The translations under genes were made by a program, and so were the position numbers. From Parvibaculaceae bacterium (lineage in GTDB: Bacteria > Pseudomonadota > Alphaproteobacteria > Parvibaculales > Parvibaculaceae), in the NCBI GenBank assembly GCA_029209985.1, contig JARGNZ010000017.1, forward strand, positions 1 through 63,217: a stretch of 63,217 nucleotides of DNA, in the 5' to 3' direction. Positions 43,960 to 48,488 of the stretch are shown in pieces; the stretch's first letter is position 1, and each line of letters opens with the position of its first letter. Below the pieces are notes generated by a model that was not told where the DNA came from, did not search any database, and saw only the letters and a program-made list of their open reading frames with translations.

Positions 43960-44163
43960 GGAAGATGACCTAAGTGCGCAAGACCAGCAACCTTTCTTAG
44001 AGAGAATTATCTATGAAGATATAAAATTTGGCGGGTTTCCAACGTTCTCCTCTCGAAAAGAACAGGTTTTAGTAACCAGCAACTTTAAACTTACATTAAA
44101 GCGCTAGCTGTAGTGTGAAGTCGCCCAGAAAGGGCATTAAGGGTGCAGAAGGAGGGGGCTATT

Positions 44164-46014
44164 GTGTCAGCACTGACAAAAGCAGGGAAGTTGCGCAACA
44201 AAAGCGATCAACATTCCGAGGCGATATCTGCACTGCAAGCAGATTGGCAGGGCTTTGACGCCGAGGGTGTTTTAAGCAGCTACCAAGGGCCAGCTCTTCT
44301 ACTTTCTGAAACCGGTGCCATTGAACGCGCCAACGCCATCGCAGCCTATAATTCGGTGCTATGCGGATTGGGCGTAATTGAGCTTCTCGCCGACTTGCCT
44401 CTTATCTTGGAGAGCCACGCAGCCCTCACCAAACGCATCACCTTGCAGCAGGACCATGAGCGCAAACACGTTTATGACATAACGCTCCTCCCTGCCTTGT
44501 CCATCTCTCAAGCCGCCCCGCGTATTTTGATGCTGGCGCGTGATGTCAGTGTGGATGCCAATCTCATTGAAGCCCTCACCCACAGCCGGTCCCTGTTCAA
44601 AGACTTGGCCCAGTGCACGTCTGATTTCATGTGGGAAATTGACAGTAGTAATCGCTTTTCTTACGTCAGCCCGCCTGAGACCCTCGGATACGAAGCGTCT
44701 GACTTGTTGGGATGCTCGCCGGAAATGCTCGCAGCCTCTCCTGCCATGGCAGAAGCAATCCAGTCGTCATTTGCCTCTCGCCGGGCTGTGCAGGAAGAAG
44801 AAATTTGGATACGCAGTGCCCACGGTAAAGAACTGTGCCTTCGCTATAGCGCCAGACCCGTATTTGATTTGGAAAATAATTTGATCGGCGCACGCGGTGT
44901 TGGCCGCGATGTGACCGAAGAGAAGCTGAAAGAGCGTGAAACCCAAGCAGTGCGTCGCCGGGATGATTTGATCGCAGCGATCGCCCACGCCACCCAGCGC
45001 GCCACGACCCCGGTTTCAATGTTAGAAGAAGCCGCCAAAGAGCTTGCCCACGCCTTAGAGGCGCATTCTGTTTGGATCGAGGACACCAGCCAAAATGTGG
45101 CCCCCATCAGTTGGACGGGAGGCAACGGCGCGCCCCAAGAAGCCATGGTGCACGAGTTTCTGGACTTATTGTCTGGTGATCTGAGCCAGCGGCCTGTGTT
45201 GGTTCAAAGATACGGCCAAGTCAATCTGGTGTTCCAAACATGCTACAATGGTGCCGTAAATGGCCGCGTGTGCATGTGCTTGCCAGAGGCCAACGACGAC
45301 ATCATTGACTTGATAGAGCCCGTCGCAGATCACTTGGCAATTACACTGGCGCAAGGCGCACAGCTTGCCGAACTGAACCGCTTTTCAAATACCGATGACT
45401 TAACAGGCTTGCTCAACCGCCGAGCGTTTTACCGCATTGGCCAAGAGTTGATTTTAAGGCCCGATTGGTCTGGTGCGTTTCTCTATATCGATGTCGATAA
45501 TTTCAAAGCACTCAACGACACCGCAGGCCATCGAGCCGGTGACACATTGCTGCAAAAACTTGCCGCAATCTTAAACCGGGGTAGCTCAAGTGCTGCCCAT
45601 GCGGTGCGCTTAGGGGGCGACGAGTTTGGCGTTCTTGTCGAAGGCATGGACGGCAAACAGGCGAGCGCCTTTGCCACCCGTATTCTGGTGGCATTTGAAA
45701 AAGTCGTTCACAACATGCCCGAAGCCACCCCTCAGCTTGGTTTGTCCATCGGCATTGTCGAGCATGAAAGCAATCTGCATATTGAAGCGTCCCTAGAGAG
45801 TGACGGTGAAGAGGCCCTCAAAACGCTCATCGCTCAAGCCGATGCCGCCCTCTATCATGTGAAGCACGGTGACAAAGGCGGCTGGCACCTCGCGTCAAAA
45901 GAAACGCTAAGTCAGAAAATCTCTGCCGACACAAAAATCAAAATCACTACAACTGCCCAGCAGTCTGAAAAAGAACACGCCGACGCTAACTTCCAAGGTG
46001 GAGGCGTGCTGTAA
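44164..46014 (+). CDS. PAS-GGDEF diguanylate cyclase
   Basis: A 616-residue signalling protein. Order: an uncertain N-terminal sensor-like region (1-130), a PAS domain (about 140-265; FMWEIDSSNRFSYVSPPETL), a weak GAF-like region (about 275-400), and a GGDEF domain (about 410-580) with DDLTGLLNRRAFYRIG and an intact RLGGDEFGVLVEG. The RxxD inhibitory site five residues before GGDEF is absent. It should make cyclic di-GMP from GTP. GTG 44164 has AAGGAGGGGG just upstream. An earlier in-frame GTG at 44143 has no such site. Its TAA overlaps the ATG of the DUF2336 gene. Confidence 0.9.
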   Translation: MSALTKAGKLRNKSDQHSEAISALQADWQGFDAEGVLSSYQGPALLLSETGAIERANAIAAYNSVLCGLGVIELLADLPLILESHAALTKRITLQQDHERKHVYDITLLPALSISQAAPRILMLARDVSVDANLIEALTHSRSLFKDLAQCTSDFMWEIDSSNRFSYVSPPETLGYEASDLLGCSPEMLAASPAMAEAIQSSFASRRAVQEEEIWIRSAHGKELCLRYSARPVFDLENNLIGARGVGRDVTEEKLKERETQAVRRRDDLIAAIAHATQRATTPVSMLEEAAKELAHALEAHSVWIEDTSQNVAPISWTGGNGAPQEAMVHEFLDLLSGDLSQRPVLVQRYGQVNLVFQTCYNGAVNGRVCMCLPEANDDIIDLIEPVADHLAITLAQGAQLAELNRFSNTDDLTGLLNRRAFYRIGQELILRPDWSGAFLYIDVDNFKALNDTAGHRAGDTLLQKLAAILNRGSSSAAHAVRLGGDEFGVLVEGMDGKQASAFATRILVAFEKVVHNMPEATPQLGLSIGIVEHESNLHIEASLESDGEEALKTLIAQADAALYHVKHGDKGGWHLASKETLSQKISADTKIKITTTAQQSEKEHADANFQGGGVL

Positions 46015-47276
46015 TGTTCCAATCCATAAAAAAAATCTTCGGGGGTTCTGGCCATCGGCTCAATGAAGACCTCTCATATGGCGAGGCATTTAAGGCATTA
46101 GAGTCTCAGGCCAAACGCTCCCGTGCCGAACTGGCAGAACGCATCGATACACCGCCAGAGATGCTGTATTATCTGGCCAGTGATGAAAAGGCAGACATTC
46201 GTAAGAAGGTCGCCCAAAATGCGGCCACGCCGATGCAGGCCAACGAATTGCTTGTCGAAGATCCCGCCGATGAGGTGCGTACCGAACTGGCCCGTAAAAT
46301 TGCGCGGCTGTTGCCAGATATGCAAACCCAAGAACGCGATGTCATACGAGAGCGGGCGCTTTCTATGTTGCAGCGTTTGGCTGACGACAAAATGACAAAT
46401 GTGCGTGCCGCTCTTTCAGACACGCTCAAAGACTCCGACCTCATACCGCGTTCGTTAGCACAAAAGCTGGCTAAAGATGGCAGCAGCATTGTGTGCTTAC
46501 CGGTGTTGGAATATTCCCCATTGCTTTCTGATGATGATCTTATTGAAGTCATCGCAGGCAGCACGGCAGAAGGGGCGATTGAGAAAGTCGCTCGCCGAGA
46601 AAATGTCTCTCCCAATGTTTCAGAAGCAGTGGCCGCATCCTTAGATGTGGCAGCGATCGCCGCGCTGCTGGTCAACAAAAATGCTCAAATGCGCGAAGAG
46701 ACCTTAGACAAAATTATCGATCAAGCCGAAACCGTGGAAGGGTTGCATCAACCGCTTGTGTTGAAAAGCGATCTCTCGTTACGCGCGGTGCGTCGTATCA
46801 GCTCCTTTGTAGTACGGGCGTTGGTTGAGCAGCTTGCAGAGCGCAATGATTTGCCACCAGAGGTGAAAAACCATCTGCAAAAACAAATTGAATTTAAGCT
46901 AGATGAAGAAACCGATGTCGATCATTTGGGTACGGATGTGAAATCCTTGAAAAAGGAATTCGACAAAAATGGACTGACCGAAGAGCAATTGGTTCAAATC
47001 GCTCAAAAGGGCAACGCGACCCTTATTGCCTATGCGCTACATCTGATCACCAAAATAGCAGAAAAGAAGATTGCCCGGATATTGGAAACAGAAAGCGCGG
47101 AAGGTCTGGTGTCGCTGTGTTGGCACGCCAACTTTGCCATGCGGTCAGCCCATGAATTGCAAAAAGGGTTACACTTCAAAGCAGATAAAATTCTTCTGCC
47201 CCGCGCTGGGTTCGACTTTCCCTTGAGCGAAGCAGACATGAAGTGGCAAGTCGAGTATTTCCAACTCGAAACCTAA
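46014..47276 (+). CDS. DUF2336 domain-containing protein
   Basis: A 420-residue soluble, mostly helical protein with the DUF2336 region (about 150-350), built of HEAT-like repeats: TPPEMLYYLASDEKADIRKK, TNVRAALSDTL, LLSDDDLIEVI. It has no membrane segment or signal. DUF2336 proteins are typical of Alphaproteobacteria and often sit near signalling or flagellar genes, but no activity is known to me. The start overlaps the upstream GGDEF stop (TAATG), so the pair is co-translated and may be functionally linked. Confidence 0.85.
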   Translation: MFQSIKKIFGGSGHRLNEDLSYGEAFKALESQAKRSRAELAERIDTPPEMLYYLASDEKADIRKKVAQNAATPMQANELLVEDPADEVRTELARKIARLLPDMQTQERDVIRERALSMLQRLADDKMTNVRAALSDTLKDSDLIPRSLAQKLAKDGSSIVCLPVLEYSPLLSDDDLIEVIAGSTAEGAIEKVARRENVSPNVSEAVAASLDVAAIAALLVNKNAQMREETLDKIIDQAETVEGLHQPLVLKSDLSLRAVRRISSFVVRALVEQLAERNDLPPEVKNHLQKQIEFKLDEETDVDHLGTDVKSLKKEFDKNGLTEEQLVQIAQKGNATLIAYALHLITKIAEKKIARILETESAEGLVSLCWHANFAMRSAHELQKGLHFKADKILLPRAGFDFPLSEADMKWQVEYFQLET

Positions 47277-47297: not shown

Positions 47298-48338
47298 TCA
47301 TTCGAGGTTCAACGTCCAAGTTTCTGCTTCGCCAGTGTCAATTTGGTCAAAATCCGTTTCTGTGAAGCCACGGTCTTGGCAGCTGCTGCGTCCGCTAATT
47401 TCAAACTTAGTTGTTTTGGTGCAGAACGTATGCCCGCCGCCCCACATTAAGTCCCGGCCTTCATCACGTACCACAATTCCATTGGAATCAACTGCTTCTG
47501 CATATGTGTAGTAGTAGCGTTTTTCGAGGGCACCCTTGATCGCTTTCACGCAGCGACCCGGTTCAATTTTGATCCAGCCGTTAGAAATATCCCCCTCGGC
47601 TGTTTCATATCCAACGGCCGCCCACGCAAGGTAGTCTGTTTTATTGCAAATATTCAGACCGGTTTTTTCTTGGTTAGCTTGGGCAGACTTCAAGAGGGCG
47701 TTAAATAAAGCGTTTGTAATTTTGCCATTTGGATTGACATTGATAGAGCGCTGAAAAGCCATAATCGCCCGTTGGGTAGAGCGCCCACCATATCCATCTA
47801 CTTTGATGTTTTTGTAATTATTGTCCGTCAACAACCGTTGCACACCCGCTGTTTTTGCCTGTTTTTGCGAAAAGGCACGCGGCTCCATAAATGTGGTGCT
47901 CCACTTGTCGCCAACTTTGGCTTCGACGCGGGTGAAGTCATTGGAATTAAAACCCCGCGAGGCGCAATTTGCCCGCCCGGTGATCAGGAAGTCGCCGGGA
48001 ACGGTGCAAAACCTTTCAGAGCCGCTGAAATATTTGCGCCCCCCCGCATGTTCATTGACCGATTGTGCAAACACATAATAGGTGTCGTTTTTAATCTTCC
48101 CACGCAGAATGGCCCGGCAGCTCCCCGGCAAAAGCCGATACCATCCTTGGCTTTTCCATTCGCCGTCTTTTTCAAACGCAATGGAGCTAGAAAGAACATA
48201 GCTGGTGTGGTTGCAAAAACGGTAATCAGCTTGGGCGGGGCTCGTATAACTCAGCCCAAGAAAACACACCAAAACAGTGGCGATGGTCAGCAAAAGGGTT
48301 CTTGGTGAAATCAAGTCCAGCCCATGAGAGCGCGACAT
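47298..48338 (-). CDS. Secreted double DUF1036 protein with peptidoglycan-binding domain
   Basis: A 346-residue exported protein. The signal segment is LLLTIATVLVCFLGLSYTSPAQA. Residues about 37-140 are a first DUF1036 domain (YRFCNHTSYVLSSSIAFEKD, ERFCTVPGDF). About 150-215 is a peptidoglycan-binding-1 fold (VQRLLTDNN...VDGYGGRSTQRAIMAFQ). About 225-340 is a second DUF1036 (LNICNKTDYLAWAAVGYETA). Cysteines pair up similarly in both copies. ATG 48338 (MSRSHGL) was chosen because the upstream codons look non-coding. Likely located in the periplasm or cell wall, function unknown. Confidence 0.85.
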   Translation of the reverse strand: MSRSHGLDLISPRTLLLTIATVLVCFLGLSYTSPAQADYRFCNHTSYVLSSSIAFEKDGEWKSQGWYRLLPGSCRAILRGKIKNDTYYVFAQSVNEHAGGRKYFSGSERFCTVPGDFLITGRANCASRGFNSNDFTRVEAKVGDKWSTTFMEPRAFSQKQAKTAGVQRLLTDNNYKNIKVDGYGGRSTQRAIMAFQRSINVNPNGKITNALFNALLKSAQANQEKTGLNICNKTDYLAWAAVGYETAEGDISNGWIKIEPGRCVKAIKGALEKRYYYTYAEAVDSNGIVVRDEGRDLMWGGGHTFCTKTTKFEISGRSSCQDRGFTETDFDQIDTGEAETWTLNLE

Positions 48339-48488
48339 GTTGATAAACTGTTGGGAACCACTGCTCACATCATCATCCTGCATTAACCATAGAAAGTTGA
48401 AGCCTAACACTGGCCCAGTTAACTCGCCTTAAAAATCGCATAGTCCAACCCGGCGGCTCTGCGTTAAGGGAGCCGTTCGATTGGTCAC

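Follow-up and report, generated by a model that had tools for sequence, protein, structure and literature searches.

DUF2336 (PF10098) is an uncharacterised protein family of which many Alphaproteobacteria carry more than one copy. A PopZ-binding member, SpbR of Caulobacter (NCBIfam NF052659), touches cell-pole development. Wang and Bowman reportedly addressed SpbR and cell-pole development in 2019. The open-access literature yielded no paper for DUF2336, and searches for SpbR and for HEAT-repeat partners of cyclases returned none on a pair formed by a cyclase and a DUF2336 protein. This study analyzed such a pair in a 63,217-nucleotide stretch of DNA (hereafter, the window) from a Parvibaculaceae bacterium, in which both genes lie on the plus strand. 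The original prediction had assigned no known activity to the DUF2336 protein, a statement that needs a qualifier given that NCBIfam models its paralogue SpbR, which has been studied in Caulobacter.

The upstream gene of the pair (44164–46014) has an intact reading frame that is open from 44143 and ends with the TAA at 46012–46014. Its best start is the GTG at 44164, the same start as in the original prediction, and the sequence shows a ribosome-binding site (AGAAGGAGG, 44147–44155) 8 bases ahead of this GTG. The 616-aa product is a predicted PAS-PAS-GAF-GGDEF diguanylate cyclase, the AlphaFold2 model of which had a pLDDT of 84.2. It was assigned to the GGDEF diguanylate cyclases by a Pfam score of 99.4 bits (PF00990, cut-off 23.8) for the GGDEF domain (45388–45870) together with an intact GG[DE]EF motif (GGDEF, 45613–45627), read in the sequence and the alignment. 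The second PAS domain (residues 155–249, 44626–44910) was identified by both Pfam (26.3 bits, cut-off 22.6) and the model, whereas the first PAS-like domain (residues 35–127, 44266–44544) and the GAF-like domain (residues 283–400, 45010–45363) had no Pfam match and were named from the secondary structure and topology of the model. Between the two PAS domains runs a linker helix (44548–44619, helix 129–152 of the model), which carries A137, L138, R142, and L148, invariant in the alignments (ALxxSRxxxxxL), and is a candidate docking site. The PAS and GGDEF domains and the intact motif are common to soluble PAS/GAF diguanylate cyclases; the window type differs from these in forming its own clade, in its conserved linker helix, and in its dedicated HEAT-repeat partner. 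Of 66 paired cyclases, 58 carried the strict linker motif, as did 7 of 83 other histidine kinase, GGDEF, or EAL reading frames, six of which belonged to the same cyclase family. The seventh match (L203) fell on a kinase dimerisation helix and was rejected as chance, and all five related kinases that adjoin DUF2336 genes lacked the motif.

The downstream gene (46014–47276) encodes a 420-aa DUF2336 protein, with a PF10098 match at 46491–47171 that scored 136.9 bits (cut-off 34.6) over profile positions 1–226 of 262. The protein models as a HEAT/LRV alpha-solenoid (pLDDT 86.2) in which helix pairs are repeated and stacked, the repeat part comprising residues 22–300 (46077–46913). A profile of 61 DUF2336 orthologues matched PR65 at 8e-7 and the LRV protein 1LRV at 0.007, and VIA-align of residues 1–300 yielded Z scores of 12–15 for alphaRep, PR65, and LRV, the LRV match having a Z of 12.2 and 3.4 A over 205 residues. 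These results bear out the HEAT-like character that had been predicted. PR65/A is a eukaryotic phosphatase scaffold (of PP2A) and 1LRV is an Azotobacter protein; both have the HEAT/LRV-type alpha-solenoid in common with DUF2336, but the likeness is one of fold and shows no function.

We compared the window protein with SpbR, which belongs to the same family. The NF052659 model scored 145 bits over residues 79–386, below the equivalog cut-off of 400, and the same genome carries a distinct SpbR-type gene (L063, C31:40378-41445) that scored 418.9 bits. In the DUF2336 tree, the clade of the window protein (29 rows, SH-aLRT 100) stood apart from the clade of that SpbR-type gene. The possibility that the window protein is SpbR itself was thus ruled out, and its score and tree position identify it instead as a paralogue of the Caulobacter protein. 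Unlike the window gene, SpbR-type genes are not immediately preceded by a GGDEF gene. The PopZ family (PF10691) was found in 59 of 76 sampled genomes, that of the window among them, and was rejected as a discriminator because it is too common.

The two genes of the window have one base in common in a TAATG stop/start overlap (46012–46016), as had been predicted from the sequence. The ATG of the DUF2336 gene is located at 46014–46016, and its ribosome-binding site (GGAGG, 46000–46004) lies within the cyclase gene, such that each gene of the pair has its own. Among 66 paired loci, counted with the window excluded and with a few genomes present twice, a candidate DUF2336 start was located -12 to +15 bases from the cyclase stop in 60 and overlapped in 46. 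This conserved arrangement supports the coordinated production that had been proposed. Long open frames suggestive of GGDEF-DUF2336 fusions (e.g., 937 aa in L237) were rejected since the GGDEF domain lay in another frame, and no such fusion was found among the DUF2336 neighbourhoods examined. On one side of the pair, HAD, dapD, and dapE genes run in the opposite direction; the other side holds a DUF1036 gene, argB, and engB, which are oriented towards the pair, the names dapD, dapE, argB, and engB being presumptive. The DUF1036 gene (47298–48410, minus strand), which converges on the DUF2336 gene, encodes a protein with DUF1036 in two stretches and a peptidoglycan-binding domain. In the family of the window (25 genomes, including its own), 20 genomes carried a full-length relative of the DUF2336 gene, all at the same locus; 7 of these had the cyclase and 13 lacked it (12 genomes of the Parvibaculum-type genus g5 and G012).

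We scanned genome contigs with a profile built from the alignment of the window DUF2336 group and examined the best 80 of 562 relatives, which came from Parvibaculum, Sneathiella, Kordiimonas, Minwuiaceae, Emcibacter, Oceanibacterium, Rhizomicrobium, and other Alphaproteobacteria. One locus (L156) was left out because its upstream sequence was too short. The remaining 79 are not independent cases because they include several near copies (e.g., L082/L083 and L086/L087): 42 had an intact GGDEF gene upstream (in L133, split over two frames), 1 had it downstream (L155), 5 had a sensor gene with the GGDEF domain missing or degraded, and 31 had none. A less biased count was obtained from 76 genomes drawn evenly from the Alphaproteobacteria, 42 of which contained DUF2336; genes over the cut-off were used, and three matches below it were left out. 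The tree of this sample comprised 93 of 101 detected reading frames, short pieces having been dropped, including the unpaired L062 at the window locus. The 29 rows of the window clade consisted of 20 with GGDEF upstream, 2 at contig ends (L259 and L260), 1 with the sensor only (L059), and 6 without a sensor. Among the 27 informative genes of the window clade, 20 thus had a GGDEF gene as their immediate upstream neighbour, compared with 0 of 64 in the other DUF2336 clades (Fisher p = 1.4e-14, kinship between rows being ignored). The adjacency count suggested by the original prediction therefore shows an association that is not chance, and the pair, far from being unique to this strain, occurs in many alphaproteobacterial genomes. 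Its recurrence across many orders of Alphaproteobacteria suggests that DUF2336 works with the sensor as its dedicated partner. Within the window clade, one subclade (L058, L248, L253, and L255; support 100) occupies other loci with no cyclase; the upstream reading frame in L253 and L255 appeared ZapE-like by eye.

We further compared the GGDEF domains of 66 paired cyclases with those of 44 unpaired cyclases from the same or related genomes, excluding the degraded L093. The paired and unpaired domains formed two groups separated by a single change on the tree. The paired clade had an SH-aLRT support of 91 in a quick tree and 98/88 in a careful tree, and one change sufficed in 98% of bootstrap trees. 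Among the cyclases sampled, a single origin of the pairing is thus the most likely history; one lineage of cyclases and one of DUF2336 proteins have been passed on jointly.

The DUF2336 gene was often retained where the cyclase was not. On a tree of 61 window-type DUF2336 proteins, the state without a sensor required 6 changes, at least 5 of them on starred branches; by this reconstruction, the DUF2336 gene has outlasted at least five cyclase losses. Fourteen genomes with DUF2336 but no cyclase (12 of the Parvibaculum-type genus g5, G012, and G028) were searched for a cyclase that had moved elsewhere. No full-length relocated cyclase was found in them; the matches were at the domain level only, with a maximum of 79.7 bits compared with 277.4 bits in G003. 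Relocation was rejected, the five domain-level matches having fallen outside the paired GGDEF clade. Because the cyclase was lost and DUF2336 kept, the two are not strictly dependent on each other.

In six loci, the GGDEF domain was lost or degraded while the PAS sensor part still stood beside DUF2336. The protein stopped after the GAF region and adjoined DUF2336 in L094 and L122; a degraded GGDEF domain without the motif was present in L099, to which Pfam still assigned 29.6 bits, and in L093; and little beyond the PAS part was left in L126 and L059. The stop codon of the sensor still overlapped the DUF2336 ATG in L094, L122, L099, and L126. Where measured, the dN/dS of these sensor-only or degraded members was 0.26–0.42 and that of their DUF2336 genes was 0.14–0.15, whereas intact cyclases yielded approximately 0.10–0.11 in two measurable pairs, a third pair being saturated. 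The sensor part is therefore constrained, but less so than when the GGDEF domain is present. This weaker constraint, together with the position of these members among gene-loss lineages, suggests that some sensor-only genes may be decaying rather than working; on these data, either reduced function or slow decay would fit. The DUF2336 residue Q225 was kept in 31 of 35 paired rows, 5 of 5 sensor-only or degraded rows, and 5 of 21 unpaired rows (including L156 with its short upstream sequence). As an interface residue it was rejected, since the average number of independent pairs that agreed in direction was only 1.6 of 5 and significance was unreachable.

DUF2336 genes outside the window clade were found beside histidine kinases. 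Eight same-strand histidine kinase genes touched such genes (L188, L189, L203, L204, L207, L208, L218, and L227), corresponding to 11 of 64 tree rows and to 8 of the 18 kinase genes seen in those regions. Five of these kinases (L204, L207, L208, L218, and L227) matched the paired-cyclase sensor profile at 69–89 bits; the other 13 of the 18 scored at most 37.1 bits or gave no score. In three alignments (L204, L207, and L208), the match took in the second PAS, and in L204 and L207 it covered the first PAS region as well. We tentatively consider, as less likely than not, that DUF2336 proteins in general may be HEAT scaffolds of Alphaproteobacteria that dock on sensors. Their different clades would serve PAS sensors with an exchangeable output (GGDEF, histidine kinase, or none), the constant element being the contact between sensor and scaffold rather than c-di-GMP. 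With only eight kinase genes touching DUF2336 outside the window clade, this extension to kinases rests on few loci. Two same-strand DUF2336 genes enclose the PAS histidine kinase gene in L204, L218, and L227.

The pairing is conserved, is inherited in a single lineage, and leaves DUF2336 in place after the loss of the GGDEF domain or of the whole cyclase. To explain these observations, we propose, as a reading that in our judgment stands about evenly between right and wrong, an old two-gene signalling unit in which a PAS-PAS-GAF sensor with a GGDEF output would be produced together with a dedicated DUF2336 solenoid. This solenoid would bind the sensor half (PAS, linker helix, and PAS) as a scaffold, and could place or gate the enzyme such that c-di-GMP is produced at a particular place or upon a particular signal. 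We infer docking on the sensor half because the sensor and DUF2336 are kept together without GGDEF, and because of the kinase cases. The place might be the cell pole, although here we speculate from the example of the paralogue SpbR. The persistence of DUF2336 after cyclase loss implies that the protein must also serve another client or perform another task. The conserved bond of one DUF2336 lineage with one cyclase lineage offers a testable client for the family, and HEAT scaffolds as a class of partners could explain the local action of individual cyclases. Natural variation supplies a ready comparative series, in which RxxD is present or absent and either the GGDEF domain or the sensor may be missing.

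We weighed three other explanations against this scaffold reading. Mere co-transcription in a stable neighbourhood, with no direct link between the products, appears unlikely: strong conservation also extends to the flanking HAD, dapD, dapE, argB, and engB genes, and DUF2336 often persists by itself, but the tight overlap is maintained across loci, the pair occurs in L244 and L250 with no tested flanking gene found within 9.7–9.8 kb, L155 has the same cyclase on the opposite side of DUF2336, and DUF2336 relatives elsewhere adjoin kinases with a related sensor half. The idea that DUF2336 inhibits the cyclase in place of a lost RxxD feedback site is very improbable. The window cyclase does lack RxxD, as predicted, having SSAA at the expected place (45586–45597, positions -9 to -6), and no paired member of its family (ten rows from seven genomes) has the site. 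Of the 68 paired cyclases whose GGDEF motif is intact, however, 54 have kept RxxD and have the partner as well, so pairing is independent of RxxD loss; the other 14 include those ten rows. The absence of RxxD in the window is, from its distribution, probably a derived local trait and therefore no explanation for the DUF2336 partner, contrary to what had been suggested.

The remaining explanation, that DUF2336 is a downstream effector that binds c-di-GMP from the paired cyclase and acts elsewhere, seems to us quite improbable. It draws on the genetic pairing itself, on the EAL-GGDEF-DUF2336 units in some loci, and on a survey of Caulobacterales that lists SpbR among 26 regulators lost together or convergently, all but SpbR and CpaM being tied to c-di-GMP (PMC12700997). 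However, DUF2336 remains beside sensors without GGDEF, no known c-di-GMP-binding motif was recognised in it by eye, and the other DUF2336 clades are almost without a GGDEF neighbour (1 of 64, L220, a GGDEF-EAL gene). Of the original suggestion that DUF2336 is an effector or regulator of the cyclase, the functional link gains from the pairing and its single lineage; a partner of the output alone is at odds with a DUF2336 gene that outlives the cyclase and stays beside GGDEF-less sensors.

EAL genes were observed near both types of DUF2336 gene. An EAL gene lies just upstream of the cyclase in L053/L135, L057, L245, L254, and L143, forming EAL-GGDEF-DUF2336 units. Five EAL proteins upstream of paired cyclases all had an EAL or ESL motif, and four of the five had DDFGAG. 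In the genome of the window, an EAL gene is located approximately 1.3 kb from the SpbR-type gene on contig C31, with a thiolase gene between them, and an EAL gene likewise lies near the SpbR-type gene of G003 (L194).
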